Shown here in pieces: positions 1-34,347 of a stretch of 64,000 bases of DNA. The notes beneath the pieces are model-generated. The model worked only from the letters and a program-made list of their open reading frames with translations, searched no databases and had not been told where the DNA came from. A program made the position numbers and the translations under genes. Location: contig OZ005702.1 in assembly GCA_963930775.1 (NCBI GenBank), positions 3,348,001 through 3,412,000 of the forward strand. The letters are read 5' to 3'. This DNA comes from Cliona cf. orientalis. Taxonomy: Eukaryota > Porifera > Demospongiae > Clionaida > Clionaidae. Position 1 is the stretch's first letter, and the number at the start of each line of letters is the position of its first letter.

Positions 1-205
1 CAAGGAGCAACTGAATAACGTAATAGCACAAAAATTAATAATAACAAACATCAAGTGTGTCCATCACTCTATTCTTTGTATCAGTTGCCACACGCCCATT
101 GTGAATGCGCTGTGTAAATATTGACTATCTTGACAACATTAAAAAGTAGCATGCCATGGACCTAGCTATACTTAATAAAAATTTAATGGTGTGGATTTAT
201 ACTAA

Positions 206-620
206 AACTAGAGCTCTGTAGAGCACATACCCCGCGCTCTCTGTAGCCACTGTAGCGTAGTACTGCAACGCTCTGCAGCAGAAATGTTTCATGACCTGAC
301 GACCCTTTCCAACACTGAGCTTGAGCATGCGCAGTCGCATCAGCATGCTAAAAGAGTGGGTGTGGTTGATAAACCACAGGCATGCTGAACAGAAAATGCA
401 CGATTTGTAGCCCTAGTAAGCCTTTTTAAGCAATTCGAAGCCCGTACAAATCAGTTTTTTATCGATATCTATCGATTGGATGTGCTTATAGTACGCACAG
501 ACGCCTAGAACTCGAGATCTGGCGATTTTCGTGCCAACAACAACAACGACAGACGGACAAACCGATTGCTTTACCCCTTGCGCGCATGCGCGCGGGGTAA
601 CTAAGGAGAGAGGTCAAGGC
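206..620 (+). repeat. Dispersed repeat R1, copy 1
   Basis: It begins with AGAGCTCTGTAGAGCACATA and ends near a palindromic segment at 574-603 (TTACCCC...GCGCATGCGC...GGGGTAA). The same start occurs at 54786 and, more diverged, at 57981. A long reverse-complement match lies at 3640-4015. No protein-coding content is seen, and the 69-codon frame over 531-740 belongs to the repeat. Confidence 0.6.
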
Positions 621-1290
621 AGTTTTGAGTTAGCCCTGGAAGAGGTGAAGGAAAGAATATCAAAATGCACTCTTACAAAGAGGAAAACAGCTGGTTTAGG
701 CATACCTGATTGTTTTCATGGATGTTTCGAGGCTTGTTAGCTATTTGGTGTAGATCACAACTATGAAAGTTAATAATCTTGAAATTCGAGTTGCTGTGAG
801 TTATTAGCAATGCATTACATGCATATCCGGACCATCCCTACATAATACTTAAACAGTTTAGGAGACTTCTAGAAGATTGAAGGGCTCTCTGTGGAATCCC
901 AAGCAAAGCAAGGGTTCTACTGAGCCCTGAGGTATTCTAAATCACGTAGAAACCGACTAAATAGTATCTAACATGTTTCCCAAAAGTTTAACATATAAAC
1001 TGCTGCTTAGCAACAATCCTAACCATATGCAAGAAATTTTACATGATTTTCTACAGAGCTTACATGATTTGTATGAAGGATAGATACTACAATCAAATCA
1101 TAGTATTTGTTAAAAGTAAGAATCTAATTATAGCTACACTCTGTGATAAGTCATATTGCAGTAAATTGCAAATTGGAGCTGAAAGCCCCCAATAAACTGG
1201 TCTGTCTATCAAGTTATAAACTGAGGTCATCGAACATAATTATGATATTATTATCACGAGGTGTCTTTGCATAACCACGAAGTGTATCTC

Positions 1291-1707
1291 CAGTGGCGGC
1301 TCCAGGGCAGTTTCTGGGTTTCTGGAAACTGGTCACTGAGCCATCCTAGCAGGCACTAGCAATGCTGTCAAAGGCAGCCATGGTCATAGCTAGCTATGAG
1401 CAAGATGACTGTGCGGGCATACTAGTGTGACAACTAATACCAGTAAATGGCATACAGAATAGACTCAGAAGGATAGATGCAAGCAGCTCATAATGGAACA
1501 AAGGTGCCAAGTGATTACCATGTGCTATGCAGCGGTTAATGAGGAGAATATGCATGCTACAGAATATACTCAGGTAGCCAGCTATAGGATGTCTCAAAAT
1601 TAATGGTCCTGGAACGGAAAGCCTTTCCAACATTTTGTGGGCGAGTACCCCCCAGATCCCTTACTTTGGACAATAAGGTGTCAATAATTTTTCAGGAGCC
1701 GCCCATG
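1291..1707. mobile_element. MITE with CAGTGGCGGCTCC-type ends
   Basis: The left end CAGTGGCGGCTCCAGG and the reverse complement of the right end (CATGGGCGGCTCCTG) match almost perfectly, giving terminal inverted repeats around about 415 bp of non-coding sequence. CAGTGG-type ends resemble hAT non-autonomous elements, but I could not find a clear target duplication. Confidence 0.5.
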
Positions 1708-2266
1708 ACCTCAGAAGTGTGTAGTTCGTCTACAGCTGTAGTTTAACATAATTATTATCATCTATTGCTGATTAAGCATAGCCCTAATTGGCAGTTGGAT
1801 TACATCTTGGTGGTCTAGAACACTAGGCCTTGCCTTTGATGCACCCACGCACTGTAGTACCAAATAATATTATGCCAGCTAGAAACATACACAATAATAA
1901 TATAATTATTGTATACCGATACCATTAATAGACCATTGGTTGCTAATACTACAGTATATATATGCAGTATAGCTAAAGTATCTTGTGTAGTAATCACTGA
2001 TTCAGGCTACTCTATCACTTGATTTTGCGTATCAAACACCTATTACATACACTTGTAAGCTGTGCAAGTAAACTGTTTGATTTGTTTAACGTGTGTGTAG
2101 TTTCATGATTGTTATAATTTAAGGTGACCATCTTTGCAGATCTGATAGCTTAGTATTCTATTCAATATGAATCTCTGGATATGCCCATAACATACATAAT
2201 ATAGTAATATTGCCCTTGCAAATATTATTATACCTTTAATAATGATACAATCCACACAACCAGAAA

Positions 2267-2761
2267 CAGTGGCGTAAGAAGATATTTTGGAGTAGGGGGA
2301 TGAGAATTGGCAATTAAGTAGGTATGGCCACCAAAATCTAGGCAGGTCTGGGGGCATGCTCCCCCAGGAAATTTGGATTTTCACACCTTTTTAGAGCGAT
2401 TCTGATGCATTCTGAGCACATTAATTGATAAATAGCTATTATTCGTTTTGTACCATTTTGTTGGGCCAAAGTTCAACTGGGACACTCCAAATTAAAGTGT
2501 GCTCATCCAAACCATTAAATTTTGAGACAGCCACGTTACAGAAAATTATGTGTACAGAATCAAGGCTGCATGCATGTTATAATGTCCTAACACAGAACCA
2601 ATGTAAATCCTATTCTATTCAAGTGTGCAAGAGTAAAATTTCTGAGGGTGTAGATAGTACATGATTACTGGTTAGGCTAGGGGGCTGAGCCCCCCTATAT
2701 TTTGAATTGGGGAGGGGGGGGGCTGAAGTCCCCCTAGCCACCCCTGGTTCTTACACCAGTG
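2267..2761. mobile_element. MITE with CAGTGGCGTAAGAA ends
   Basis: Terminal inverted repeats are CAGTGGCGTAAGAA on the left and CACTGGTGTAAGAA (reverse complement of the right end). The interior has the G/C-run text (GGGGGCATGCTCCCCC) seen in other elements of this genome. The pentamer AGAAA flanks both ends. No coding content. Confidence 0.5.
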
Positions 2762-2834
2762 AGAAAGCTGTGCAAATTAGTACTTGTCAATGAGCAATTT
2801 GGCTTGCATAATAGCTATACGGTGAGTTCACCTA

Positions 2835-3036
2835 TACTGTATAGCCAGAAATTTGGCAGTTTGGCGGTCTATATTACAACCGCCAAATTAAAATCCACCA
2901 AAATTTCCTACTCGCATATATATGTATGGAGATCCCGTACTGAACCACCAAATTTAAATTCACCAATATTCTTGCAATAGTGATTTGGGGCTCAACCGCC
3001 AAATTTAATTCCCGCCAATATTTCCGGCTATACGGT
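2835..3036. mobile_element. Short TA-flanked MITE, TACYGTATAGCC ends
   Basis: The left end TACTGTATAGCCAGAAAT pairs with the right end, whose reverse complement is TACCGTATAGCCGGAAAT. The element is about 200 bp with several internal GCCAAATT/AATTTGGC motifs. The outer TA pair is consistent with a Tc1/mariner-type TA target. Confidence 0.6.
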
Positions 3037-3190
3037 AGCTATCAACCTAGAAATGACCAACTGGACTAATAATTATGCATACAACTCGATTCTCTACACT
3101 GTGAACCTGTCATCATGTTCAGTTAGGTAAAGGTACTTGGTGACGCTGATATTGTGTGCAGCTTTTTTACTTCTTTAGGTATACCTCTAA

Positions 3191-3600
3191 GGTCACTCCA
3201 AATGAGAACGTAGTTTCCCATCTACCGCCCGCCCCTATCTGATGCTACCGCTTCATTTGACCATTATGTCCATTATTTAGCTAGCTAGGAGTACTGCTTC
3301 ATGAATAACATTATTTGAAGCTAGCAACCCACAGTGATGTGTGTACTTACCTTGCTTTCATGATAATAATGCCCCTTCTTGTCAAGGTGCTGCTATCAGC
3401 ATGCACTAGCTAGCGGTAGCGCTGGTTAGCTGTCCATGCTCTCCTTGTGTGCACATGCACAGTTGTGGGATGAAGAATTTTCGTTATATTCATTGTGCTC
3501 ATAATGAGATTCATAATAATGGTTAATGGTAATGGCCGCCCGCCCGCATATAAAATGCAGGAAGCCAGGACGGGAAACTATATTCCCATTTGGAGTGGCC
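3191..3600. mobile_element. PIF/Harbinger-like MITE (TAA target duplication)
   Basis: Left GGTCACTCCAAATGAGAACG and right reverse complement GGCCACTCCAAATGGGAATA form inverted repeats of more than 25 bp. The trinucleotide TAA borders both ends, matching the 3-bp TWA duplications of PIF/Harbinger elements. A related copy sits at 42970-43216, also between TAA trinucleotides. Confidence 0.6.
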
Positions 3601-3639
3601 TAAGATATACTAAACTATAAACTGTAGCACTTGTATACA

Positions 3640-4015
3640 AGATTTTTCTACCCCACGCACATGCTCAAGGGGTGAAGTATTGGTCATGTCGTCGTGCGTT
3701 ATCGTCAACTTGTCGTCATCGTTTACACAAAAAGCCATATCTTGAGATATAGGCTGGTAAAGATCGTCGAAATGCTTGTGATATCTACTATCCAGATCCG
3801 TTGGCGGGGCTAAAATTTAAAGCCCTATGGAACCAAATCATAATGTAAGATATATAGCTATACTATGTTGGTGGTATCAATTTATATCTTCCTAGTAGAC
3901 TAGGTCTGGTGCAGAGAGTACTTTTGTCACCAGGACCCCGGTAGCTACGTACAACTAAGCAGCATTTCCACTATTTTTCTGAAGTTCACAAAATTATAGC
4001 CCATGCACACAAACT
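3640..4015 (-). repeat. Dispersed repeat R1, reverse copy
   Basis: The reverse complement of this stretch matches 54850-55125 and onward: first the segment with GAACTTCAGAAAA and CTGCTT, then the segment ending in CGACGATCTTTACCAG. Base changes and small indels are frequent, so it is an old copy. Confidence 0.55.
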
Positions 4016-4388
4016 TAAAGGTATATTTACCATTCTTTATGGCTACCTGGAGATTATCATCTGCAGGCACTAGACCTAGGTACAGAGCTCAACACTATAT
4101 TGTGCGACACTGCCTATGGGCATGGCTATCATCTGTGTGACTTATTCTATGGAAATCCCATGATATTCAGAGTATAAGATGCACCCTGGATAAAAGTAGC
4201 AAGAATGTGTGCTATACTGCAACATACATGTATATTCCAACAAATATGGTATACAGTGTTGGTATGTATTAATATGAAAATTTCTGGTAATTTTATATAC
4301 AACATAATGATAGCATATTCAGTATGGTACTGAGTCTCTATCATCTACCTTCAACATCAGGTATCACAATCATTTTACATTTTTAGAT

Positions 4389-7300
4389 ATGCCTGATACC
4401 GTGTCAACAACAAGACTGCTAGAAGCTTGCAAAGCTGGAGATTTGAAGTCTATCAAGCAGTTGTTGGAGCTAGGAGGAGATCCCTCACAGCTAGTCAAGT
4501 ATGCATATGAACGTTCTCATCCTACAATGATTAATGCTTTACACTTTACCTGCATGCTTGGAAAACTTGATGCATTAAAGATCTTAGCTGACTATTGTAA
4601 GAATCATAGGTTTGAGATAAGGGGTGACCAGTTAGGACTAACCCCATTGCATTATGCCTGTCGTTATGGTCACTTTGACATAATTCAATATCTATGTTCT
4701 AATGCAAAGTGCAATCCACATGGTAAAACATTTGATGGTAGTACTGCACTGCACATGGCATGTAAATGCCCTTTGCTGGATGCAAGCACTCTTAAAATAG
4801 TGGTATATTTGGTAAAAGTTGCTAATTGTGATGTAAATGAAACAACTATCAATGGTCTCACTCCCCTGATGGTGCTTTTACAACATGGGCCGTGTATCAC
4901 TGTTGCAAAGTATTTAATTTTTGAATGCTCTTGCAGTCTCTTAGTGCAAGATAAGCAAGGAAATACTACTTTGCATATTGCCAGCTCATCAGGTGATTGT
5001 ACTATCATTCAAGAACTTGTCAAACATGATGATGGGCTCCACAGTACTATGATTACCAATGAGCAGGGCAATACTCCTCTACATCTGGCTTGCTTGCATA
5101 ACCATGATAAGTGTGCTGAATTACTTGCAGAAGCTAATCCAAAAGGGTTGCATGCAAATAATAATGCCAATTTAATACCATTACAGTGTGCCTTGCAAAA
5201 ATCTCCACAAAGTAAACTGACTCATATGCTAATAATGAAAATGGAAAAATCCTTGGATAAAAGTGGAAATTCTCCTCTTCACATTGCGTGCTTATTATCA
5301 GACATCACCTTAGCAAATATTGCAGCAAAATTATCCCACAACCCCAATATAGCTAATCATGATGGTGATACACCGCTCCATCTGGCATGTAGGTACAACC
5401 AACATAGGATATCTGAAATTGTTTTGAATCTAAAAAGTGATGTGAACATTACAAATAAAAAAGGAGAAACAGCCCTTACGGTAGCTTGCACAGGAAATAA
5501 AGTATGGTTAGTCAAGCTATTCCATATGAGAGGGAAAAGGAGTACCAATGGTGAAACTCCTTTCTTTATTGCTTGTAAACTTGGAAATACTGAACTGGTT
5601 AACCAAATGATAATGGCAGGTTTAGACTTTTCTGAAACTAATGATGCGGGTGAAACACCATTGCAAACTGCAATCAATCATAGCCATATTCAGATAGTGA
5701 AGCTGCTCTCAAAGAAGCCTAGTGAACTAAGTCGTATAGATGAGGTAACCTGGTATTACAAAAGGGGAGTTAATCCTACCCTAATGTTGACTGCACACGA
5801 ATATTTACTTCAGCTTGAATGTCATGAACTAAAGGGTACTTTAATACTCAAAGATATTCCACTAAAATACTCTGAAAAAACAAGGTTAAATCCGTTGCAT
5901 TGTGCATGCTACTATGGTCATGTTTATGTTGCAAAATATTTAGTGAATACTTTACTTTGTGATCCCAATACAAAGATACTTGATAGTGGATTAACCCCTC
6001 TACATCTTGCCTGTATGGCTGCTTGTTCAATGGAAAACTCATTAAAAATTGTAAGATTTTTGACAACAGAAGTTGCTGGCAATTGTAATTCTAAGGCAGT
6101 AAGTGGTGATACTCCTTTAATGGCACTCCTAAGCACTCACAGCAGCTGGAACGAACTTGTACAGTACCTGGTTAACGACTGTCTCTGTGATCTTGGTATA
6201 AGGAACAACCACGGAGCAACTGCACTTCACATTGCTTGCGCAAAGAGTAGTACAGAAGCAGTTAGGATAATCATCAAAGCAGGTGCAAATTTGGACATAA
6301 GAGATAAAGCTGGTAGTACACCACTACATATAGCATGCAAAGAAAACAATGAAGATCTGGTGAAAGTTATCCTAAGTCAATTACAGAGTAGAGTGGATGT
6401 TGTTTTGGACATTTTGCAATGTTTCCATGATAGGCAACCAGTTATAGCCTCTGTGACTAAAATCATGCATGCCCACAAAGATATCAATGGAAATACTCCT
6501 CTACATATTATTTGTATAAAAGATGATATCAATTTGGCTAGAACTGTGGCAAATACAATATGTGCTCCAAATGTACAAAATATCGAATATGACACTCCAC
6601 TTCATATAGTATGCAGAAATAGCTGTTCTACGATGGCTGAGATAATTTTAAGCATAAGAAACTGCGATGTTAACATCAAGAACAACAATGGTGATACTCC
6701 ACTGCATCTAGCTTGTAGAAATGGTGATATGCAGATCATTGATATGCTTTTAGAGAAACTCCCTGACATTCTTTTAAAGAATGCCAGTGGACATACCCCC
6801 ATCAACGAAGTTCTTCATCCCCACTGCTCTAACATAGAAATAGTTTGGCACATATTACGCCAAAATCACAAACTTAATGATTCAAAGATATGTGACATAT
6901 CTATGTTGAAATACTTGGTAGTGAAAGAAATCATTGATGTAGCTGAATTTTTAAAGCCTGATATAGCCCATGAGAAGAATATTTTACATGTACTATGTGG
7001 CCAAGCTGGAGATATACATGCTCTAAGGTTTTTTGTACAAATGCAAGTTAATAGTAGCTTCATGATAATGCAAGATAAACGAGGATGGACTCCACTACAT
7101 TATGCTTGTTATTATGGTCGCCAAAATATAGTTGCATACCTTATAAAAGAGCACAACTGTAACAGTCTAAGTCAAACAATTGAAGGAGAAACTTCACTAC
7201 ACCTTGCATGTATTGCAGCTTGTTCAGAAGAGAATGCTTTGCAAGTGGTAAAGTTTTTGACATTGAAATGTGAGCATGATGTCAACATGAGATATGAGGA

Positions 7301-10300
7301 TGGCACTACGTTGCTGATGTATCTATTACATCACAGACCAGCTGCTGTAGACATTGCATACCACCTAATTGAAGAATGTCAATGTGATTTATCACTTACT
7401 AAAAACAGCACTGGTGATACAGCACTTCACATTGCCTGTATAATTTGCAATAGGGAGGTTTCGAGGCTCATTATCCAAGCAGGAGGGAGTTATGTTGCTA
7501 GTGTTACAAACAAGAATGGAGATACTCCACTTCATTTAGCTTGTAAGTTTGGTTGTGAAGACATTGCCCAACTACTTATCACATCTCAACCACACTGTTT
7601 GTATGAGGAGAATGAAGCATCACATACACCACTAGAAGTGGCAGAAGCTCACAGTCAACATGACATTATTGCTCCTATTATCTATGCCATGTATGATAAT
7701 CCAGCTGTCAATCGAAACACTCCACTTCATGTTGCTTGCTATTCTCAAAATGTCTATCTAGCAAAGATGATAACAGATATGAAATTCAACGTAACAGCAA
7801 CTAATATTTTTGGTGATAGCCCACTGCATGTTGCTGCTAGAACTGGTAACTTCGAACTTGTGAAGTTGTTATTAGATTCAGGTAATTGTGATGTGGATTC
7901 ACGTAACAGTGATGGTGATACACCCCTCCACGAAGCAAGCAAAGCTGGTCATTTGACCATTATTAAATCAATTTTAAAACAAAGCATGTTACCCGACATA
8001 AAGAACAATGCTGGCCTGAGTCCTATACATTGTGCAATTATTCACAAAAAATTTGATACTGCACTCAGTCTATTGATGTTTCCAGGGAAGGGCAAGCGTT
8101 CCAGTAAGAATTTGTCCATGGAAAAGATACTTGTGAAAGTTAAACGTCTCATCAAGGAAGGAATTGAACCTGTGGAACTTTTACAAATCAAATTCGATGA
8201 GGATAGGAAATCATTTCTACATACCGCATGTATATTAGGAGATTTGGAGGCTGTTCAGCTTCTGATAACTCTCAGTCATGATTGTAACAGCAATGGGTGG
8301 TCTCCCCTGCATTTTGCATGTCACCATGGCCACTGTGACATTGTTCAATATCTAGTTGAGGAGGTTGAAAGCAATCCCTATCTAGCAGCAGTTGATGATA
8401 TCACACCATTGCAATTGGCATGTTACTCTGAGAACATAGATATTATTTCATATTTGCTAACTAGAGAAGTGTGCAATCCAAACCTCCCTGTTCTTAACGG
8501 AGAGACGTTACTGCTAAGCCTAGTAAAGAACACTAACCAATGTCCTATGAGTGTTTTACAGTATATTGTAATAGACTATCACTGTGATTTGTCAGTACAA
8601 GATACTGAAGGTAATACAGCTTTGCACATTGCTTGCCAAGAAGCATCCCAGTTGGACACAGTGAAACTGATTATTAACAGGAATGATTGGCCATCCCATG
8701 TCAAAAACAATCAAGGAAACACAGCACTCCATATTGCGTGTGAATACGGGCACACTGAAATCGTGAAAGCTATCCTTTCCACCAAGAAATGTGATTTTTA
8801 TGAAAAAAATGTAGCAGGGTGTACTGCACTTGAAGTTACAAGTATTCCCGACATAGTCATAGTGTTAATTCAAGAGATGTTCATTTTCCGTGACAGGTAT
8901 GGAAATACACCTCTGCATACTGCATGTGAGAACCAAAATTATCAACAGATTCAGTTTGTTATTGATAAATGTTCGGATGTATCTGTGACAAATTATAATG
9001 ATGACACACCATTGCACTTGCTCTGCAAGAAAGAAAATTGTTCAATGGAATGTATAAAACTACTGATTGCTTCAAACTGTAATCTCAGTGCAAAAAATAA
9101 ACATGGGGATACTCCTTTAAGTGTGGCATGTAAAGTTGGTCAGTACAAAACTGTAGAATTACTCTTGGCAGGTGAAAGTCTTACTGCTCTCAGTACTAAG
9201 GATATCAATGGTGATACTCCTCTTCATCTGGCATGCAGATCGGGGAACGTATTCTTAGTGGAATTTCTCTTAGAAAAATGCTCAGTACATCACATTAAGG
9301 AACCAAATAAAAGTGGTCATGCTCCTCTTCATGAAGCTTATCATGCAAAAAATTCAGCAATAGCCATTTTGATTCTAAAGTCACTGGTAGTCAAAAAACA
9401 CTTCCATTCATCCAAAAGGAATCATAATGTTTCTAACGATGATTTACTATGGGAAGTGAAGCAGCTTGTGAAACAAGGAGTTGATCCAATGTATTTAGTA
9501 TGGATACCACTAGATGAGACCAAAATGGAAACGTTTCTACATATTTCCTGTAGTAAAAATGATATTGAAGCTGTCCAATTACTTGCTAAGAAAGGAAATT
9601 CAGAAATTAGAGATGCTAAGGGGTGGACTCCACTAAACCATGCTTGCTTTCATGGAAATTTAGAGATTGTTATTCACCTTATTATTAAAGTCAACTGTAA
9701 TCCTTCTCTACCAACACTGAATGGTATTTTACCTCTGCAACTGGTATGTTCTGCTTCAGAGGAGTGTGCTTTGAAAATAGTAATGTTTCTAATCAACACA
9801 GCAAAATGTAACCCTGATGCCACTATTTATGGCATTTATGGCAAAGATACATTACTAATCTATCTTCTTAAAACAAATAATATGAAAATGAGTATCTTAA
9901 ACTTCCTGATTATGGATTATCGTTGTTCTCTATCAGTAAGAAGCCACAATGGTAACACTGCTTTGCACATTGTTTGTAGCTACATGTCACTAGAATTGGA
10001 ACCACAAGCATTGGAAGTGATCAAGATGATGGCTGCCAGAAATGATTGTGATGCAAGTATTACAAATGACTTATTTGATACACCACTACATTCAGCTTGC
10101 ATGGATGGAAAGCTGTTAATCATTAAAGCGTTAGTATCAAACTTTGGAAAGAAATGTGGAATTTATGCAATAAATAATGCTGGTCACTTACCACTGTATA
10201 TAGCTTTTAATTTAGGTCACCACTTAATCGCATCCTTTCTTATCTCTGTGATGTACTCGATTCTAGACGAGCATGATAATACACCACTTCACATTGCTTG

Positions 10301-13300
10301 CATCAATGAAGATATTTTGCTAGCCCAGTACATTGTTAACAATGAGCACTGTGTCATTTCTGCTACCAACAGTGATGGAGACACAGCTCTTCACATTGCA
10401 GTTCGGACAGGCAATCATATACTTGTCAATGCTATCCTTAAAGTCTGTGATAGTACCACTCTTCAACTCTGTAATCATAGTGAAGAAAATTCCCTGCATA
10501 TTGCATGTAAAGTCGGTGATAGTTTATTGTTTCAAAAGCTACTGATGATAAAATCAGTCCATTGGGACAAAAATGATGATAGCGTGTTTCACTTAGCTTG
10601 TAAGTACAGCCACACTCACATTGTTGACATTATTTTGAGTGAATTAGTTATAAATGTTAACAGTAGAGACAATAATGGAGAGACTGCTCTTCATGTTGTG
10701 TGTAGAAGTGGAAACAACAAGATATTCACATTACTGCTTGGTAAAGGAGCTGATGTAACTGTTACAGATAAAGATGGTAATACTCCTCTTCATCTGGCAT
10801 GCCAGACTGGTAGCTTAGAAATTTGTCAGGAAATTCTGAAGAAAGGTTGCGATATCAATGCAAAGAATAAAAATGGTGATACTCCTCTATTCATTGCATG
10901 TAAATACTGCCATTTCTATATCCTTCAGCTACTGATAAATGAACCTGAAATCAAAATCAGTGAACGTAACGATAATGGAGATACATTACTCCATGTGCTG
11001 TGTCGATCACCAGGTTGTGATTCTGCCATGGTTCGATATACATTAGAGATCACTCAGATTGATCCAAGTGTATCAAATGTAGTTGGCGAAACTCCAATTC
11101 AGCTCACGTCTAACCATCACATTATATATGAGCTAATTAGATTTGGTGCCGATCCAACCGATGTGTACGCAAGCAAAGTTCGGATTGATGTTAAGAATCC
11201 ACCACAGCCAGTCGTCAAGGTCTTTATTGTTGGAGATCCTTCAGTGGGAAAGAGTACTTTGACTGCAGCATTGAAAATTGAACTTTCACGTCTTGCTAAG
11301 GTCTTCACACCAACCAAGCGAGTTGCAGGAGTTGAACAAGGGACTGCTGGCATCATTCCTCATGACTTTGATAGCAGAAAGTTTGGATCAGTCACCCTAT
11401 ATGACTTTGCTGGGCACAGAGAATTTTATAGTAGCCATTCTGCTCTTCTACAAAATTCAATTCAGTCATCCCCTCCCATTTTTGTTATAGTTGTTGATCT
11501 GCGGGAGAGCTATCAAAACTTGAAGTCCAACATCCTCTACTGGTTGACATTTATAGAGAATCAGATTAATGCAGTGAATAAAAAGCCACACATTATTATT
11601 GTTGGCAGCCATGCAGATATCATAAAGCTAAATAAGCAAGAGTTACTTGAAAAGGAAGAGATTATTGAACATATCAAGGGACTAGATTACCTAACAAGTG
11701 TGAAAGTACATGGATTTGTTTCAATGGATTGTCAGTATTCACAGTCACCAGGTATGTCTATCCTTCGTCATTACATAAAGGAAAGTTGTGAAGATGTTCG
11801 TGTTGACAGTAACATCAAGTTTAATGCTCACTGCTTCTTAGTATACCTCTATGATAGGTTTAAAGATTCTACAGCAATCAAGCTTGACCAGATTGTGCAA
11901 ATTATTCACAAAGATAAAGAAAATGTAGTTGCTAACAATCCCTTATTCTTTTTACCAGAGAGTGTACAGCATCTATTTGATCTCTGTTATGAATTACATG
12001 ATAGGGGACATATTCTTCTACTCAAGGACAAGCATACCCCTTCAAATAGCTGGATTGTAATTGACAAGGTATTGCTACTTAGTGAAGTAACGGGGAGCAT
12101 TTTTGCTCCTGAAGGGCTTAGGCAATACTGCAATCTTGCATCAAATACTGGGGTAGTTCCTTTAACTAAACTTTCAGCAATGTTTTCTAAGTATGACACT
12201 GGGATGTTAGTTGGTTATTTAGTTCATCTTGAGTTTTGCCATGAGATATCTGACGGTGAAATTCTTCAGCTTATTGACAAAGATATTCAAAATTACACCA
12301 GCACTGAAGTGTACTATTTCTTTCCTGCTTTAGTCCAACTTAAAGCCCCAAGTAATCTATGGGCACACAAGCCTCACCATGTATATTATTGTGGTTGGAT
12401 TCTAAAATGCTCCAGACCTGGGCAGTTCTTCACTTCTAGGTTTATTGAAGTACTAATCTTAAGACTCGCTTTTTCATTTGCCCTTATTACAACCTATGAT
12501 GACACAGATACTGCCATTCCTGTTTTACAGCGAAAGTGTTCAATTTGGAAGAATGGCATATTTTGGGGTGATAACAGTGGCATTGAGACTCTCTTTGAAG
12601 TAGTTTCTGATAATAAAAGTGTAGTAGTGCTAATGAGGTGCACAATGAGACAAGCATTAAAGCATTTTCTTCAACTTCGTTCGAGCCTTATTCGTAAGAT
12701 CCTAGCAGCATTTTCTGAGTTTTGTGCAAAGGTTGATGTATCAGAATGCTTTATTGATCCCACTGAAGCACAGCAATATCCAATCACAATCGGTCAATTC
12801 TACAACATTGAAGATATTTCATCAATTATCATTAAAAATGAAGGTGGATCCATTTGTATAGTTTCTGGTACTGGTGAATCGTTGCCACTTGCTTCTGTCT
12901 TGATATTTGAGCCCTACACCTTATTGAGCAAAACAGTAATTGCCAAAATATTTGGAAGCAGTGATGCAGCCATAAAAGAAATTCCTGATCATGAACTTTC
13001 TAAATTGGCACATACAATTTCAAGCAATGATGGTGCACTAGCCTTTGCAAACATGTTTGATGAAACTTTCACCTCCCCTCCCAGTTCTAGTCAAGTGCTA
13101 TCAATGCTTAAAATATGGAAGGCTACAGCCGATGGAACATACTTAAGTCTTCATCAGAAGTTGGATCCCTTCAGCATCTTTTCAACCAGAAATCCTGGTA
13201 TATTATAGTTTTTAAACGCTGTATATTATGTTTTCAATAATACTGGCTACTGTTACAGTACATATATAGCCATCATATTTCAGCTAAATAGCTAGACCTA

Positions 13301-13999
13301 GCCTAGCAGCTCAATAAACTGGATTAGATCAACAGTATTGCAAGTGGCAACATCCATTCCAATTAAAATAGGTCCTTCCTAAATTTAATTGACTAATTAT
13401 GCGAAGTTGCCACTAAGTTAGAAAGAAAAACATGCACCCACAAATCTGAAAGAGTATATGATTAGTTAAGGTACACCTAATATAATATTATTATTAGACA
13501 TTTTTGACATATTCATAGGAACTCTGGCAGGCATTTCATTATCAGAAATCTTAGATCAAATATATATTGACGAGAACAAAGCTTTTCTACAACTAAAAGG
13601 TATTGCACACATTGTGGGCTGATATATGCCCAGCTGCATGATGCCTGTGTTAATTATTATGTTGCAGATCAACAGCCTCATCTTCATCAACTAGAGCAAC
13701 TAACCGGACCGGATGGTTCAAAATCAGTGCAGGTTATTACTAGCGTCGCTGCGAAATGGGAGGAACTCGCCATTGCCTTGGGTTTTGATGCTCCAGCCAT
13801 AGCTGTTATCAAAAGAGATTATTCCTCTGACTGTAGAGAAGCTTGCTCACAAATGTTACAAATGTGGCTCAAGATGGAGTTTAGTGATGTGAGTAGATCT
13901 ATCTCATGGGCTACACTTATTCAGTCTTTGAAAGATGCCGAATTTTCTAGTGTAGGTATAGAACTGGAAGAAATTTTGAATCTTGAGTGTGTACTGTAA
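4389..13999 (+). CDS. Giant ankyrin-Roc-COR-Death protein
   Basis: Three exons: 4389-13197, 13519-13599 and 13668-13999. All joins are GT-AG with phase 1, giving about 3073 residues. The first 8.8 kb encode about 60 ankyrin repeats (motif DTPLHLAC, residues about 40-2250). A Roc GTPase domain follows with P-loop GDPSVGKS (2282-2289), switch DFAGH (2339-2343) and SHAD (2407-2410) in place of the usual NKxD. A COR-like region comes next, then a Death domain (about 2985-3070) in the last exon. Order ANK-Roc-COR-Death is that of DAPK1 after its kinase, but no kinase is present and the array is many times longer. The frame at 13198 runs only into GTATATTATAG, a donor followed by a stop, so I prefer splicing. 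The ATG lies just after a possible splice acceptor, so an upstream exon is possible. Likely a GTP-regulated Death-domain scaffold; the role is inferred. Confidence 0.85.
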
Positions 14000-15170: not shown

Positions 15171-15241
15171 CAGTGGAACCCCTCTATAACGGCCACCATT
15201 GGGGAATGAGGTAGGGGTGGCCTTAACTCTGCATCAACGTC

Positions 15242-16246
15242 ATGCCTCCGAGAAAGAACGGACGCAAACAGCCGACCGCCGCTACCATCAGCAAGCCGGG
15301 CAACAAAGGCTGCAGCTCGGCCCGATCCTCTACTAGTCAAAGGCGTCAGTGCGATGGGTGCTCAGATGACATCTCAGCCACTGCGGACGCCCTGAAGTGT
15401 TGCGTGTGCCAAGTGTGGTTACACCGCTACTGTGCCGGCGTTCCAATGAGCCGCTACGCTACTATAGCATCTACATTTGTGTGTGTAGCTTGCTCCATCA
15501 CGGCCAGCTCTTCAATCGTCTGTGAGTTAAGAGATGAAATAACAGCCTTAAAAACAGAAGTATCCCAGTTAAAAAGCGCTCTGCATGCAGCCAATCTCAA
15601 ATTAGAGCACTGTGAAAAAGTGGCCACAGATGCACAAGATATGCAGAGGGCGTCCACAATGAAGGGTGACAAGGATAATGTGCCATCCGCGGGTCAACGT
15701 GGTCGCTCTAATAGGAGATCTAATGGTCGTCATAAACAAGCTACAGCTTCCACTGGCTCTCAAGCTATCCATGCTGCACCGGCATCAGCAGCCATAAGAA
15801 GGAAACCAAGTGTACCGGTGCAAGGGAAAAGAAAACTTTGGGGAACAAGGAAGACTACAACTACCGAGGATGTCATTCGTACCATTAATACTTATACTAA
15901 CGTTAAGACTGGTCTGACGGTCAAGCGCAAGTACAAATCTACTCCAAGATACCCACATGCAATTACTAAATGGTGGTTTGTTGTCAGTGGAGAAGAAAAT
16001 CTCCTCCAGCAACTGCATGGGGAATGGTCAAAAATCACCCAAACAGAGGGTAAATGGTCTCTTGAGTCCCTTCTTTGCTATCCTGAATCAACCTCAACTG
16101 ATTCCAGTTGCCATGATGGAGTGTCTCCTGCTAATAATATGCATCCGTCCCCCAACCCAAGCCAAGAATCTGACTCCACTACATTAACCACTATGGACCC
16201 GAATGCAGTAACACCTGAAATTACTGATCCTAGCTCCAACCAGTGA
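15242..16246 (+). CDS. LINE ORF1 protein, PHD-type zinc finger and coiled coil
   Basis: 334 residues. The N-terminus is basic (MPPRKNGRK). A C4HC3 PHD-like finger spans about residues 37-84, with Cys37, Cys40, Cys53/54, Cys56, His61, Cys64, Cys81 and Cys84. A heptad-like helix (about 94-134, ELRDEITALKTEVSQLKSAL) probably forms a coiled coil, and a basic stretch then leads into a charged C-terminal half. CR1-group ORF1 proteins with PHD fingers are thought to bind nucleic acid or chromatin and to assemble the ribonucleoprotein. The TGA stop is followed 18 bases later by the ORF2 ATG in the same reading frame, with no other stop between. Confidence 0.8.
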   Translation: MPPRKNGRKQPTAATISKPGNKGCSSARSSTSQRRQCDGCSDDISATADALKCCVCQVWLHRYCAGVPMSRYATIASTFVCVACSITASSSIVCELRDEITALKTEVSQLKSALHAANLKLEHCEKVATDAQDMQRASTMKGDKDNVPSAGQRGRSNRRSNGRHKQATASTGSQAIHAAPASAAIRRKPSVPVQGKRKLWGTRKTTTTEDVIRTINTYTNVKTGLTVKRKYKSTPRYPHAITKWWFVVSGEENLLQQLHGEWSKITQTEGKWSLESLLCYPESTSTDSSCHDGVSPANNMHPSPNPSQESDSTTLTTMDPNAVTPEITDPSSNQ

Positions 16247-16264
16247 CTGGGCCCCGGCGCCCCG

Positions 16265-19069
16265 ATGGGGAGTACTTGCTCCCAGCTTGCCCCTAATGCC
16301 CCTGATAATAATACTTTAAAGATTCTCTACTATAACGTTAGAAGCATTGTTTACAAAATTGACGAACTGTCCACTAATTGCTCCTTGTATAGCCCAGACG
16401 TTGTTTGCATAACAGAAACTTGGCTCAATGAAAGTGTGTTGGACTCCGAGGTTTGCATTGCAAACTATCAGCTTGTAAGGTTAGACCGAGATCGGCATGG
16501 TGGAGGAATTGCCCTTTACATTGCCAATTACTTATCATTCACACTAATTTGCTCTCGGCCTGATACCCTAGAGTTCTTAGCAATTTCCATCAAGCAGCCT
16601 CGGGGTGATGTGGCAATTGCACTTCTGTATAGACCACCATCATCTCCGACCTCCTATTTTGACAATTTGTCCAAAGTTCTGGAAGATATATGCATCCCCA
16701 TGTACTCAATGTTCTTACTCGTTGGTGACTATAATGTCGACATCTCCACCCACAACCATCTAAGCCGTAATCTCCTCAATTTAACTAGCCAACATGGTTT
16801 GTCAGCCATTCAAACAGACCCTACTCGTGTAACAAGCTCATCTGCGACCACCATAGATCTAGTGTTCACTACATCACCTTCAGCTACTAAATCATGTGAG
16901 ACAATACCTCCTATTGGGTCATCTGATCATCTTGGGATCTTAGCCACATTCGCACGCAACCCAGGCCAACCAAACATCCAAGTCCCTAGGAGAGTATGGC
17001 GATATAAATATGCAGACTACGACTTGGCTAATGATATGCTGCTAGCACTGGATCCTTCAGTTACTATTGTGGATGAAGATGTTAGTGCATCATGTAGAAA
17101 TTGGAATGACGAATTTATGAGGGTGATGGAGCTGTGTATCCCACATGGTAGGATTCCTAGGAGAAAGAACCTACCCTGGTTATCCAAATCAATTATCCAA
17201 CTTATCAGGAAGCGAAATCTTCTCTTCAAAAAGTCTAAAACTTCACCGAGATATGTTCAAAAGTATAAGCATGTCAGGAATAAAGTAGTGACCTTGCTTA
17301 GGAACTCCAGGAAAAATTTCTTTAAGAATTTAAATCCTAGGAAGAAGGCATTCTGGAAAGCTGTTAAAAGTGTATCACGTAATTCTTCTGAAATTCCAAC
17401 ACTCAAATCAAACAATGTTACAGTGGCAACAAATGATGCTAAAGCAACGATGCTTAGTCACACCTTTTGTCAGAACTTTAACAAATCTGCTTTACCGCTC
17501 ACACATGCTGATGTAATACCAATCCCTAGAACTTCACATACGTATATAGACAGTAACCTACTCTGCACTGAACCCGAAGTTTTCGATCTCCTAGCATCTT
17601 TGGATATCTCAAAGGCCACTGGTCCTGATGGCATATCCGCTCAAATGCTGAAGTACACAGCTGAAAGTATCACCCCTATCATTACAGCCCTGTTCAATCA
17701 GTCAATTTCGATGGGCATCGTTCCCGACCAGTGGAAAATCTCGTTAGTAGTGCCCATCCATAAGCAGGGTGAAAGAGCCGATCCATCTAATTATCGTCCA
17801 ATTTCCCTATTACCTATAATTAGCAAAGTCTTGGAACAGCACATTGCCAGCAAACTTCGATCGATACTATCTATATCTGACCAACAGTGGGGCTTCATGC
17901 CTGGGAGATCAACCACCGGTGCCATTCTCTCTGCTATGCATGACTGGCATGAACATCTAGATAAAGGAGCTGATGTTCAGGCAATATTTTTTGATCTACA
18001 AAAAGCGTTCGACAGTGTGCCCCATGGTCCCCTGATTGATAAGTTAATATCTCTGAATGTCCCTACAGCATTAGTATCCTGGATCTCTAGTTACCTCTAC
18101 AATAGAAAACAGCAAGTGGGAGTATGTGGAGTTAATTCTGATCCAGTCAATGTAATATCTGGAGTACCGCAGGGCTCAGTGCTTGGACCCCTACTGTTCC
18201 TGATTTACATCGATGGTCTCACTAGTATCCCATTAAATGGTGGCAGTCTGGTGATTTTTGCTGATGACCTGCTCTTGCACAGGGTCATCTATTGTGCTGA
18301 AGACACTCTTGCTCTACAGAAAGATGTAGATTCATTAGCCAATTGGATTACTTTCCATCATCTGACACTGAATGTACGCAAATGTAAATCATTACTTGTG
18401 TCAAGGAAGCACTCGTACCTCAGTGGTCAGTCAATATATGTCTTTGGACAAGTTCTTGAAAAGGTTGAATCCTACAAGTACTTGGGAGTGGTCATCAACT
18501 CCACTCTGACTTGGAGTGACCACATTTCTAGAGTTTGTTCAAGAGCACGTCAACAGTTGGGTCTACTCTATCGTCAGTTCTATCGAGATTCTAGCACCTC
18601 TACTCTCAAAGCATTGTACATTACACAAGTGCGTCCACACCTTGAGTACTCCACCCCTGTCTGGGATCCACATCTATCAAAGGATATCAATGCACTTGAG
18701 TCAGTACAACGATTCGCATCCAAAGTGTGTACGAAAAAGTGGCGTGATGTGAGCTATGACGAAAGGCTCAAATTACTGAATATAGACACTCTCCAGTCCA
18801 GGCGGTCGCAGCTGAAACTGTGTTATTTATACAAAATCATTAATGGGCAGGCATACTTCATGAATTCACCACTCTCTTTATTTTCTTCTGTACACGACAC
18901 AAGGTCTCACAATTTAACATTGAATGTTCCTTTTACTCGTTCAGTAAGTTCTTTTAATTCTTTTTTTTGTCGAACTACACGAATGTGGAACCAACTACCT
19001 TTTGAAGTTGTTTCCAGTCATACGTTTCTATCCTTCAAGAAAGCACTATGTAATCATACATTTACTTAA
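16265..19069 (+). CDS. LINE ORF2: endonuclease-reverse transcriptase
   Basis: 934 residues. The N-terminal third is an AP-like endonuclease with start ILYYNVRSI, the ITETWLN acidic motif, GDYN and SDHLGI. The reverse transcriptase follows with KATGPDGIS, NYRPISLLP, GFMPGRSTTGAI, FFDLQKAFDSVPH, SGVPQGSVLGPLLF and the catalytic FADD at residues 665-668. The C-terminus (RRSQLKLCYLYKIING) is the conserved tail of CR1/L2/Rex-type elements. It nicks target DNA and copies the element RNA at the nick. No frameshift or internal stop is visible, so the element may be active or only recently silenced. Confidence 0.88.
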   Translation: MGSTCSQLAPNAPDNNTLKILYYNVRSIVYKIDELSTNCSLYSPDVVCITETWLNESVLDSEVCIANYQLVRLDRDRHGGGIALYIANYLSFTLICSRPDTLEFLAISIKQPRGDVAIALLYRPPSSPTSYFDNLSKVLEDICIPMYSMFLLVGDYNVDISTHNHLSRNLLNLTSQHGLSAIQTDPTRVTSSSATTIDLVFTTSPSATKSCETIPPIGSSDHLGILATFARNPGQPNIQVPRRVWRYKYADYDLANDMLLALDPSVTIVDEDVSASCRNWNDEFMRVMELCIPHGRIPRRKNLPWLSKSIIQLIRKRNLLFKKSKTSPRYVQKYKHVRNKVVTLLRNSRKNFFKNLNPRKKAFWKAVKSVSRNSSEIPTLKSNNVTVATNDAKATMLSHTFCQNFNKSALPLTHADVIPIPRTSHTYIDSNLLCTEPEVFDLLASLDISKATGPDGISAQMLKYTAESITPIITALFNQSISMGIVPDQWKISLVVPIHKQGERADPSNYRPISLLPIISKVLEQHIASKLRSILSISDQQWGFMPGRSTTGAILSAMHDWHEHLDKGADVQAIFFDLQKAFDSVPHGPLIDKLISLNVPTALVSWISSYLYNRKQQVGVCGVNSDPVNVISGVPQGSVLGPLLFLIYIDGLTSIPLNGGSLVIFADDLLLHRVIYCAEDTLALQKDVDSLANWITFHHLTLNVRKCKSLLVSRKHSYLSGQSIYVFGQVLEKVESYKYLGVVINSTLTWSDHISRVCSRARQQLGLLYRQFYRDSSTSTLKALYITQVRPHLEYSTPVWDPHLSKDINALESVQRFASKVCTKKWRDVSYDERLKLLNIDTLQSRRSQLKLCYLYKIINGQAYFMNSPLSLFSSVHDTRSHNLTLNVPFTRSVSSFNSFFCRTTRMWNQLPFEVVSSHTFLSFKKALCNHTFT

Positions 19070-20897: not shown

Positions 20898-23800
20898 TTA
20901 AAAAAATTCACTTTCTATTTTTATGGATGGAAGTCTAGCTCTTCTTGTTTTATTGATAGTCTTTTGAGCTGCACTTGACAAAGATTTCAAATTTGCTGGG
21001 AGTCGAAGTTCACTAATCCTGGAGTTCTTAGATAGAGCTTCAGTTAAGGATGTCAGTCCATGTTCAGTTAGTACATTGCTTCCAGATATGTAGAGCACCT
21101 TCAAGGTAGTATTTATGCACAAAGCATCAGCAAGTAAAGCTACTCCAATATCAGTTATATCACAAGATCGAACGTCCACATACTTAAGAGTCTGGTTGTG
21201 TTTAAGACCTTCAGCTAGGTGAGCTACACCTTCATCACTAAATAAATTGTTATGAATTAGTAATCTCTTTAATGAAGGATGTTCTGTTATTGCCACAGCA
21301 ATATCTTTTACACCTTTCGAAGTAATACCACATTTGGATAAACTTAATGTTCTAAGAACATTATTCTGCTGGAGACTCCTTGCAATGAGTGTTGCTCCTG
21401 CATCAGATATGCCAGGATTGTTCTTTACACTAAGGTTGCGCACCATCCTTGTTTTGCTCAGCATCTCAGCAATATGAGAAGCTCCTTCTTCACCAATGTC
21501 ATTATCATTCAAGTACATAATAATGTAGGTATGTATGGTAGTGCAAGGATTCATATCCTTACAAATACTTTGCATTAAACTCCTAGTACCATTATCTCCA
21601 AGGGAACAGTTGTCAAGATCCACTTGAAAAACCTTAGCGCTATTGATGCACACTGACAATGAAGAGAGAAAATACCCTATGGCTATGAAATCCACTGTGT
21701 AGAGGGAGCATCTAGACTCACCAAAATTTAGTCGTTTTCCTAGCCTTCCTGCAACAAAATGGCAGAGTGACAGGTCTTGAGCTTCATACAAGCAGTGAAG
21801 AAGAGATACCAAGAGAGGTCTTTGTTCAGTGTATATAAGGTTCTTTTGTTTGATGATTATATTACCTACAATATCCAGCACACTAGATGGGCTGGGATTT
21901 AGCATACGAGGAACTCTACTGAGAAGCGGTCTTGCAGTACGAAGCTTTGTAATAGCAGAATAAAACTGGAAAACTGCACTAAACCTTGTGTTACCAAACA
22001 ATGACTGAAATGTAAATATCTGTTCACTTGCTGACATTGTTGATATATAATAAGCTGCTAGCACCTCTTGCACAGATAAGTGAAGAAAATGATAAAAAAA
22101 TGAATTTCGATTAGAAAGTAGACTGGGTGTAGCCTGGAGTAAACCTATCTCACAAACATCACGGAAAGGTGTCAAGTCTTCAGTGGAAAACGTTACCCTA
22201 TTTTCTCTAACTCCCAGGAAGGCCAACTTGCAAAGGTCATTGAAAGGGGCTTGCAATTCTACAGGTATGGTATTTAAGGAATTGAAACTGGCTTCATCTT
22301 GCGTTTTACCTAGCCGATCATGCATATAACGAGACAGACAGTGCTGGACAAGAGAAGAAAAGATACCATGTGCAGTAGTGGGGAGAGATCCAGCTGCTAA
22401 ATAGAGGTGTGCTACAATGGAAGCATTCAGTGGAAGGTAGCAGCTACCTTCCATAGCTGGATTTTCTTTAAGCCTCTCAAGTAGTGAGGACACACTCTTC
22501 ATATTTCCATTCAAGCACTCAGTAAAGTACTGTTGTTGAATTTCTTCTGTGAAACCCAAGACTTCAATTCTTGCAGATACCAGTTTGCAAAGTTCACCAG
22601 ATGAAATTGGACGGGATGTTACTATCACAGAGCACTTAGCAATGGGAGATCTGAGCGGTGGAATAATGATGTCTCTAAGCAATGATTGCTTTTGAAGATG
22701 TGGTGGCAACTCATCCCAGCCATCCAGTATCCATAGCACATCCTTACCATCATTGGTTCTTATTGTACTGGCTATTTGACGTGCCATTTCCTCATCACGA
22801 CATGGCATTAAGTCAGTGATTGCTTGTGCACTTTGCACAGCTGGATCACGTAACTGAACTAGGATTACAATCGTATATTCCCGAAATAGTTCACCTTTGC
22901 TCCATTTCTGGCAAATATGTATTGCAAGTGTGCTCTTGCCACTGCCAGGAGCACCATCAATAAGAACCACTTTTCGGGCCTCTTCAATACTATCAAGAAT
23001 GTCTTCAAGAGCAATGGGTGATTTCTTCAATAAAATATCGTCAACTTGCCCTCTGATTGTTTTACGTACAAAGTCATCATCAATCTTACCACGATTAATA
23101 ATCTCTTTCTTGATAATGGCCAAGTTAAACACTTTATGTGTTGGTGATGGAAGCCAACTGCACGACGATCTGCTGATGTGTAATTGTTCATGTCGCCCTT
23201 TTAAGTAAGAGCTGTACCAAGAAAGTTCATTTCGACGAATGCACTCCGAGTCAGAAGAAATGATGCCACATAGACCATCAATCACGCTAGCCATATTAGC
23301 TTGATACAGAGCAAAAATTAATCTCCTGCATGAACAAGAAGTCATTGTTCACTGTGAATGGATGTCAAGCTATTAGGATAATGCGGTACAGGGTCATTTA
23401 AATTCCAAAATGTGAAAATTATCACACGAAATATTCATTATTTATGGTATATGTGACCGGATTTGGGAAAATCCTCCGTATGGGATTTTTTCAGAAAATT
23501 GAGTTTGATGCATGGTTGATAACCTCTACCATAGAGCTAACCCGCGTTCAAGTCTTAGGCCGATCGCGCGCTTCGTTGTTGAGATACAGTGCTTTGTTTG
23601 CGATCGCGCCACACCCCCAATAATCAAGAAATTACAGTCTAAAGGCATTGCTATGCACGCGTATGGCGTTTCCGCATACTACGCGTGACCCGGAAATCAA
23701 TTAAATGGACCTGGGTGGAGCCGTTCGGAATGAACGTAAAGATCGAGCAAGAGTTGAATTTCGTTGTTGACAACGACAGACGATTGTTCTTAGATGCCCA

Positions 23801-26800: not shown

Positions 26801-28397
26801 TGAATTTTCTTGCGGTAATTGGATCATGCGTTCTATTAGCATAAACACGGTATATACAGTGTGTCCTTGATAGCTTATTGGTAACCTCGCTTCCAGGCTC
26901 TCCCTCACTTTTTGCATGTGCAAATATTACTGAAGGAAAGGTACAGAATCCCGTCCACCCGCAGCCAGCCATGCAATGCACTCTATTGTGCACTGTACTT
27001 CTCCCACACTGCCTTATGGATCATGATAATGTCGCTAATAGGTCATAATATAGATGAATGGGAAGGTTTGGGTTTGGGTCACAAAGATACTAGTCTCGTG
27101 GACCAAATCACTCCCTCCGCAGTGCTGGATGTATTGCATCACCAGCACAGCATTGCAGAGGGAGTGGTCTGGTCCATGAGACTATTAGGCCATGCAAAGA
27201 TAGTCTTCTGTTTCTCGTCCCCACCCGCATGTACATCAAACCCTCCGTGTGTACTTTTGATATTCTGATTTTGGCTGGATGACGTCATCAAGCCATAATT
27301 AATTAATCAATAATTAACATTCTGGGGGTGTAGTCTCATCGTTAGTCGCTCGAGGCCCGAGTAGATACTCTACAAATGTAAAAAAATTGATTGAATGCTC
27401 AGTCTCTACCAACAAAGTTGGTCAGCAATGATCATCAATAACTGCTGTGACACTGGAAATGGAGCAGATATATAAGCATATAAAGCTAGTCATTGTTGGA
27501 GTTGCCGTTTCAGTTTGTTAGCAATTAATGGGGGTGAGGCTAGGGTGTGGTATCAAATATCAAAATCATCCGTGTCCCTTATGTGCTTTGGAGCATTCTA
27601 TAAGACGAGAAACAGAACATTTAATTTAATTGAAGATACTCGATTTGTCGTTGCCACGATGGCCATCAGAGCAGCAACTTCGTAAGTGAAAATTAATTAT
27701 ATTTAATCTAAAAATGACCCATAGCGCTCAACAGGCACACAGTTACCATGTGACCTTGGAAACTTAAAGAGGCTATGTGTGATCATCACAATAATAGCTG
27801 CATTTGAACTTAATGCACATGCATTGCCCCATCTAGCTGCCACCCCACTTGGGGATTTGATTGTATTTGACCAATAAACATGCCCTGGATCAGGGGGATT
27901 TGATCAATATTTACAGATAATAGGGGAAATATACAGTCCTATGATGGGGGAATTTGATCCTAGTATTTGCTCCAGGGGAGAGGCAATTGATTTCATATAG
28001 GTCAAATCTCCCACCCTTCTCCATGGGGTGGTACCTGGGGCAATACATTGATAGGTGCATATTAATACCTGTAAGTTGCCTGCGAGTTCATTTTTCCCTT
28101 CCATTTTCTAAACATCTCTACTCGCTGTCTTGCTGTATCTCGAGGCCAGTTGAACTCAATATCTTCAACTTCCACAGACGTCAGTCCAAGGTTCGTTGAA
28201 AGATGGGCTTGCCACTTGGAAAAATGATCCGTTAGTTTGACAAGATGAGATTCAGCGCAGGGGTCATCGAGAACTTCGGGAGGGAATTTAGAAAGTTGTT
28301 CCCGAAAGCTAAGCGGCTTAACAAGGACGAAATATTCTTCAGCCATCATCGATTCTAGTCTGATCTGACGAGGCTCACGTACTGTCGCCGTGCGCAT
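20898..28397 (-). CDS. NLR receptor: Death-NACHT-LRR, two exons
   Basis: Exon 1 runs from 28397 (or the likelier ATGATG at 28349/28346) to 28069. Exon 2 is 23325-20898. The donor after ACT TAC AG joins the acceptor CATGCAG in phase and restores one Death domain across the junction (QATYRRLIFALYQ). The product is about 902-918 residues: Death domain (1-120), linker, NACHT with Walker A GAPGSGKST and Walker B VLWILDGWDELP (about residues 218-226 and 290-301 from the 28349 start), a helical region, then ribonuclease-inhibitor-type LRRs (about 660-890, e.g. LRTLSLSKCGITSKGVKDIA). Sponges are known to hold NLRs with Death or CARD domains; these are cytosolic sensors. The alternative acceptor 20 bp upstream would hit TGA at once. 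The 4.7-kb intron is full of transposons. Confidence 0.85.
23449..24123. mobile_element. Inverted-repeat element in the NLR intron
   Basis: Left ATGTGACCGGATTTGGGAAA and right reverse complement ATGTGACCGGATTTGGGAAA form terminal repeats of about 35 bp with few mismatches. Inside, 23729-23812 has an ATG-led open stretch of 28 codons ending in a splice-donor-like AAG/GTGAGC. The element interrupts older repeat DNA whose halves are at 23373-23453 and 24735-24900. Confidence 0.6.
24344..24715 (+). repeat. Hairpin-rich dispersed repeat R2, long copy
   Basis: Starts AACAAAAAATATTTTTCAGAC after a TA-rich tract. Related copy at 44207-44390 (about 80% alike by eye). It holds several perfect GC-rich stems: GTGCGGGC/GCCCGCAC, GCCTGC/GCAGGC and GCCTC/GAGGC. 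The 100-codon frame over 24404-24706 is not supported as a gene. It may be a SINE or another RNA-derived element, but no clear A/B box was identified. Confidence 0.5.
24735..24900 (-). repeat. Copy of the TACCGTAAATCGCG element family
   Basis: The reverse complement reads through GGACAGCCTGGCTTATGCG and GATAATGCGGTACAGGG, the same order as in the complete element at 32744-32934. A partial forward copy with GATAATGCGGTACAGGG is at 23373-23453. Both lie in the NLR intron, in opposite orientation, around the 23449-24123 element. Confidence 0.55.
25636..25668. repeat. (CTA)n microsatellite
   Basis: About eleven tandem CTA/TAC units in the NLR intron. No further structure. Confidence 0.85.
26196..26335. 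mobile_element. MITE with TACCGTGTTTATGCTAATAG ends
   Basis: Left end TACCGTGTTTATGCTAATAG, right end close to its reverse complement but decayed. The interior has AAGTGAATTTTCTTGCG, shared with 26740-26852 and with the outer element at 36535-37080. Non-coding. Confidence 0.5.
26740..26852. mobile_element. Second copy of the TACCGTGTTTATGC MITE
   Basis: The right end TCTATTAGCATAAACACGGT is the reverse complement of the family terminus. The interior GAATTTTCTTGCGGTAATTG matches the copy at 26196. The left end is diverged or truncated. Located in the NLR intron. Confidence 0.5.
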
Positions 28398-28546
28398 GCG
28401 CTTTGCGGGGTCAAAATCTAGCGGTCAAAACTTAAAACAGTTGATGTAGAGGCAGCTTGCAGAGAGGCTGTATATATCGATATAGAAGAGGTAACCTGAA
28501 AGAGCTAAAAAGAAGACTGCATAAAGAGAATGGGTCTGAACAGTTG

Positions 28547-29350: not shown

Positions 29351-34347
<4,997 letters not shown>

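Follow-up and report, generated by a model that had tools for sequence, protein, structure and literature searches.

Among the Roco proteins, DAPK1 makes up a third group that is marked by a Death domain (accessible part of PMC6337361), and its kinase precedes Roc-COR (accessible part of PMC6320773). In other animals, Trichoplax Roco proteins carry CARD, Death, TPR, LRR or AAA parts (according to the sections at hand of PMC4104024), proteins resembling TLR and MyD88 that contain Roc and COR are mentioned for Aplysia in excerpts of PMC9334734, and sea-anemone genes that combine kinase, Death, TIR and Roc/COR appear in those of PMC5094078. In the Roco papers cited here, attention is mainly on human LRRK2 and DAPK1, whose kinase resides in the same chain. 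In the literature searched, mostly non-subscription papers represented by parts of their text (including PMC8195603, PMC11378527, PMC8242945, PMC3386278, and PMC6321704), a kinase-less ankyrin-Roc-COR-Death family of sponges was not described, which is weak evidence of novelty.

A stretch of 64,000 nucleotides from the sponge Cliona cf. orientalis, located on a contig labelled C14 of a 217 Mb assembly and referred to below as the window, was analyzed in this regard. Its gene at positions 4389 to 13999 (Table 1) is interpreted as an intact gene encoding a kinase-less Roco-type protein with a giant ankyrin array, Roc and COR-like regions and a C-terminal Death domain, and as a divergent member of a dispersed family. 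Taken as a whole, with the mechanism proposed below, this explanation is considered probable, the domains being better established than the mechanism.

Table 1. Exons and domains of the window gene; positions are those of the window.
Feature	Position	Strand	Content and basis
Exon 1	4389..13197	+	ATG, entire ankyrin array, Roc, COR-like region; ends ...FSTRNP(G); open frame, spliced translation
Ankyrin array, residues 10-2207	4416..11009	+	Pfam Ank_2 1.3e-260; home-made profile
About five superunits, each ~400-450 aa	4536..10488	+	Limits by eye near residues 50, 470, 866, 1273, 1714, 2034; superunit alignment
Roc GTPase domain, residues 2277-2410, with GDPSVGKS, DFAGHRE, SHAD	11217..11618	+	Pfam Roc
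COR-like region	11802..13190	+	Profile alignment past Roc in LRRK2 chains; match to L001/L009
Exon 2, 81 nt, TLAGISLSEILDQIYIDENKAFLQLK	13519..13599	+	GT..AG, phase; counterparts at start
Exon 3: Death domain (Pfam match 13739-13942), stop codon	13668..13999	+	Pfam Death

The forward frame 4314-13208 is open over 2964 codons from stop to stop and gives 2939 amino acids in one frame when translation starts with the ATG at 4389. Given the base composition, 2939 stop-free codons would be expected by chance with a probability below 1e-90, and each of the five remaining frames contains 126 to 319 stops. The GC content by codon position is 0.47, 0.34, and 0.31. Joining of the three exons produces a coding sequence of 9222 nt (3073 aa) with a single stop, at its end, in which both introns are bounded by GT..AG and the phases fit. 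In the predicted spliced product, the ankyrin array is followed by Roc, the COR-like region and Death. Two claims of a first-pass annotation of this DNA, namely that one exon of ankyrin repeats runs into Roc and that the Death domain lies on a separate small exon joined in phase, are thus borne out, the former by a single frame with Pfam matches to ankyrin and Roc, the latter by the GT..AG borders, the phases and, in outline, the counterparts of the joints in relatives.

Using a home-made profile, 47 ankyrin repeats were detected at i-E < 0.05 and 50 when weak ones were included, and the number of slots rises to 66 once gaps are filled by spacing; therefore, the earlier count of about 60 is a fair one. 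In composition shuffles searched with the same profile (i-E < 0.01) no repeat was found in 19 of 20, and a single one in the remaining shuffle. The ankyrin array of DAPK1 is much shorter. When the array was compared with itself by local alignment of blocks, stretches of 200 residues mostly aligned best at offsets of ~395-455 or 818-855 residues, the exceptions being the blocks that start near residues 241, 341, 1441, and 1941, and the mean best block score was 269, whereas 30 arrays in which the repeat order had been permuted averaged 188 and reached 207 at most. The alignment of the superunits, cut by eye, contains shared stretches beyond the repeat consensus. The array has probably grown by tandem duplication of blocks of ~400-450 residues with ~12-13 ankyrin repeats each, and such a block-duplicated array represents a simple case of growth of a recognition surface.

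The first-pass annotation had proposed an HMM check of Roc, COR and Death. Two of these exceeded their Pfam cut-offs, Roc in exon 1 with 1.7e-7 (31.9 bits vs 27) and Death in exon 3 with 5.2e-7 (30.1 bits vs 22.6). The assignment to the Roco proteins is based on this Roc domain and on its best relatives among PDB sequences, which are LRRK2 Roc (1.2e-4 with the single sequence and 3.9e-11 with a family profile). Pfam models that fit the P-loop domain above or near the cut-off are Roc, MMR_HSR1, and Ras, AAA and ATP-binding models match it only below the cut-off, and NACHT gives no Pfam match to it; besides ankyrin and GTPase-type families, Pfam detects no other family in exon 1. The NCBIfam matches to Roc-COR are to GTPases, all of them under the cut-off. 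The P-loop reads GDPSVGKS in the window gene and GNPSVGKS in three relatives from the same genome (L023, L028, and L031), and the lysine-serine of this motif, DFAGHRE and SHAD are common to the four genes at an overall identity of 42-46%. The occurrence of SHAD in place of NKxD had been read as a sign of altered nucleotide specificity. This proposal is rejected: SHAD is ordinary in the family, being present in all four close relatives that cover the site (the three mentioned and L024; L022 does not cover it), the VGSHAD of the window aligns with VGTHLD in LRRK2, and a more distant gene, L001/L009, has SFAD at this position.

The region that follows Roc is considered COR-like based on relatives. 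Pfam COR-A gave no match on the window gene up to E 10, and a COR-only family profile retrieved no Roco chain from the PDB sequences, its best hit being an unrelated protein (E 0.069). A Roc-COR family profile (A1) aligned over positions 48-345 with long LRRK2 chains, vs an end at ~245 in Roc-only chains, meaning that the alignment extends ~100 positions beyond the end of Roc into a part of LRRK2 that we take to be COR. In addition, the L001/L009 gene aligns with residues 2556-2752 (26% identity; hhalign probability 91%), and its matching part scores 1.7e-4 and 22 bits with Pfam COR-A, below the cut-off of 35.3. The earlier COR-like assignment has indirect support from the relatives and the LRRK2 profile alignment and none from direct Pfam recognition. 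Structure prediction of Roc-COR from one sequence with AlphaFold was useless (mean pLDDT 35).

Compared with PDB sequences, the Death exon produced weak matches (RIPK1, 0.007; PIDD, 0.51), and NCBIfam gave no match to it. Ten Death stretches from relatives share 30-37% identity with the window Death domain, and that of L001 shares 19%. A second Death stretch in the window was considered and rejected, as both Death queries from L023 matched only 13676-13984 at E below 1. The best match among the fetched loci was found in L029 (about 9574-9855, 36% identity, 5e-17), a stretch with neither Roc nor COR match at E <= 1e-3, and therefore the Death domain of the window may have a history of its own, separate from and wider than that of the Roc-COR part. 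A search of the genome recovered at least 150 Death matches over the Pfam cut-off from 1292 candidates; the window's own Death domain was absent among the matches listed. Many of those listed are clustered on C6, C10, C18, C4, and C8, and some lie on open frames of 800-960 codons. A short open frame of the window, at 28065-28424 on the minus strand, appeared faintly Death-like by eye; it gave no Pfam match at E <= 0.001 and a hhalign probability of 6%.

Various other features were observed in the window. Immediately downstream, the gene is followed by a LINE-type retrotransposon (15227-19069, plus strand), whose first frame gives a sub-cut-off PHD match (5.9e-4) and whose second contains endonuclease plus reverse transcriptase (RVT_1, 1.4e-32). 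On the opposite strand, ~7 kb away from the Death exon, an NLR-like open frame contains NACHT (6.8e-19) and LRR together (20901-23348, minus strand). A DDE_1 transposase-type frame (52925-53566, plus strand, 1.6e-14) and two ordinary genes, encoding a cation efflux transporter (30112-30870, minus strand, 2.5e-47) and a ribosomal S8e-type protein (36098-36529, plus strand, 1.3e-25), were also detected.

A search for paralogues, also suggested in the earlier annotation, was carried out within the same genome on 20 Death matches picked by hand, not at random, for each of which 10 kb reaching upstream were fetched. Five of the 20 stretches match the window COR at 37-51% identity, in pieces (E <= 1e-3), and four of these also match Roc, at 52-58% apart from a short piece that reaches 64%; the other 15 match neither. 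The five relatives, L022 (COR only), L023, L024, L028, and L031, are distributed over C4, C7, and C15, and share with the window gene the COR-like region and Death (five of five) and Roc (four of five). Over Roc-COR they are 46% (L031), 45% (L028), 44% (L023), and 42% (L022, later part only) identical to the window protein. Ankyrins, Roc and COR occupy one open frame of 1537-1786 codons in L023, L028, and L031, in which Pfam Roc falls short of its cut-off of 27 bits (23.7-26.0) and the first and last detected ankyrins are 770-960 residues apart, vs 2197 in the window gene. The main copy in L024 is broken over several frames, by introns or decay, and this stretch also holds the tail of an apparent further relative. 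The stretch L022 (1-10000) contains no Roc and, upstream, a long run of repeats with VYTTLDY...HKSK-like translations. The relative in L023 is preceded by an unrelated gene with Chlam_PMP-type repeats (7.4e-18) at 1-1934. Among bacterial and archaeal contigs, 27 pattern matches were obtained, none of them a relative.

Two Death-type frames follow COR in each of the five relatives vs one in the window gene, a count to be read as at least two, as the fetched stretches stop there, and under the assumption of one shared transcript. The dN/dS values over Roc-COR for the six pairs among L022, L023, L028, and L031 range between 0.25 and 0.34 (NG86), and therefore the relatives' proteins seem to be kept; values vs the window gene are unreliable, with a dS of 2.1-2.9 (saturated) or undefined. 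Since the window gene has one Death domain and a far longer array, the function of the family may not carry over to it. A more distant gene, L001/L009 (C14, about 953-961 kb, minus strand), also presents ankyrin pieces, Roc (1.5e-10), a sub-cut-off COR-A and Death (2.9e-15), with no kinase found upstream to the next gene. It differs from the window gene in that its ankyrins are spread over several separate short frames and in its low identity (Roc 32%, COR 26%, Death 19%), and no meaningful pairwise BLAST match was obtained between the two Death domains.

The joints of the window gene can be compared with those of its relatives. The end of exon 1 has counterparts in all five (...RN-V/I-L before GTAAGT vs ...STRNP(G) in the window gene), and the intron that follows is in phase 0 in the relatives and in phase 1 in the window gene. 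The small exon starts with TLAG in the window gene, with ELAG or DLAG after AG in L022, L023, L024, and L028, and with LARYQY in L031. The acceptor of the Death exon has counterparts at the matching place, no counterpart was assigned to the donor at 13599, and L028 and L031 show, by eye, an apparent further exon before Death. Judging from the splice sites and the relatives, the Death domain is probably encoded in the same transcript as exon 1.

With respect to the kinase, no Pfam family was found at E <= 0.1 in the three forward frames of positions 1-4388 of the window and the preceding 4.9 kb (L013:5101-10000). A pattern screen for kinase motifs, run in both orientations on the window, on the 30 kb that precede it (L013-L015), and on L009-L012, produced three matches, none of them kinase-like on reading; this screen is crude, motifs split by introns would escape it, and the 30 kb upstream were covered by patterns only, with Pfam extending over 9.3 kb. 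Within these limits, the earlier reading of the gene as kinase-less agrees with what was found. Upstream of L023, L028, and L031 no kinase was found in three frames over 2.7-3.4 kb each, and therefore the absence of a kinase may be the normal state of the family. Likewise, a Pfam scan at L001/L009 that began with the first ankyrin pieces, reached the neighbouring gene (a DUF1674 match in L010) and continued for ~1 kb past it revealed no kinase, meaning that the second ankyrin-Roc-COR-Death lineage of this genome is also kinase-less nearby. A recent loss of the kinase in the window gene alone was considered and is less likely, since neither the three relatives scanned upstream nor L001/L009 show one nearby.

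Other explanations of the locus can be weighed on this evidence. That the gene is a DAPK1 whose kinase exon lies further upstream and was missed would agree with the order kinase, ankyrin, Roc, COR, Death (accessible part of PMC6320773) and with a possible splice acceptor, judged by sequence (tacatttttag), that immediately precedes the ATG at 4389 and therefore leaves room for an upstream exon; nevertheless, the Pfam and pattern searches upstream and those of the three relatives speak against it, and it is regarded as highly unlikely. Equally little credence is given to the view that the gene makes exon 1 only and that the Death exon belongs to another transcript. Exon 1 reads in frame to a stop at 13206, eight bases past the donor, and an unspliced transcript would therefore end without Death; against this, the relatives contain equivalents of the exon 1 end, of the beginning of the 81-nt exon and of the Death acceptor, and the phases fit. 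A decaying copy of the family that has lost expression would account for the divergence from the relatives (42-46% identity), for the single Death stretch vs at least two, and for a relative, L024, that is itself broken over several frames; however, the uninterrupted frame, the GC values by codon position and the presence of the GTPase motifs render it very improbable.

A rival of somewhat more weight, unlikely in our estimation, is that of a static scaffold, in which Roc is a structural relic and Death a contact surface only, with no switch. Ankyrin arrays act as scaffolds in known proteins, no kinase was found, and the Pfam families of exon 1 are limited to ankyrin and GTPase-type ones, all of which would fit such a role. 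Conversely, the P-loop lysine-serine, DFAGHRE and SHAD are shared by the window gene and three relatives despite their divergence, which argues against a mere relic.

Returning to the kinase-less Roco-type protein with a switch, its anatomy is consistent with a role as sensor or scaffold. The ankyrin array would bind cytosolic ligands or partners, and Roc-COR would alter its dimer state according to the nucleotide (GTP/GDP), a behaviour that has been proposed for other members of the Roco family. This change could expose or cluster the Death domain, which might then recruit, in trans, Death-domain adaptors or kinases; the output that DAPK1 carries within its own chain would thus come from a partner. 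On a wider scale, and tentatively, this animal may possess a class of cytosolic receptors, counterparts of the NLRs, that join an ankyrin array, a Roc-COR switch and one or more Death domains and have multiplied in the lineage, the window gene being a giant whose array was enlarged by ~12-13 repeats per block duplication. If this is true, a kinase-less, multiplied family amid many Death domains offers a natural setting to address the role of Roc-COR alone, and to ask whether in early animals it acts as a switch for immunity or cell death.

In DAPK1, the kinase is followed by a calmodulin-binding autoregulatory segment. Of the features of the DAPK1 group, the window gene presents ankyrins before Roc and a C-terminal Death domain, and an N-terminal CaMK-type kinase was not found within the searched range. 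DAPK1 and the window gene share ankyrin, Roc, COR (COR-like in the window gene) and Death in this order (accessible part of PMC6320773), while DAPK1 has a kinase and none was found here, a comparison made with the description and not the sequence of DAPK1. The first-pass annotation's reading of the gene as the DAPK1 domain string minus its kinase is thus retained for the order of the domains and the lack of a detected kinase, and is not supported as a lone derivative of DAPK1, as the closest relatives found are other genes of the same genome, and the three of them scanned upstream show no kinase either.

The Trichoplax Roco proteins share with the window gene Roc-COR with Death-type domains and lineage-specific multiplication, and no kinase is named in the part list given in the accessible text of PMC4104024; they differ in that ankyrin arrays are not named there, again a comparison by description and not by sequence. 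The NLRs (NACHT-LRR plus Death-type domain) show the same layout of repeat array, nucleotide switch and Death-type domain, with NACHT where the window gene has Roc-COR and LRR where it has ankyrins, which is an analogy of layout and not homology. Altogether, a Roco-type protein with a Death domain is known, and what appears new at this locus is that no kinase was found and that the gene carries a giant, block-duplicated ankyrin array and belongs to a multiplied family.
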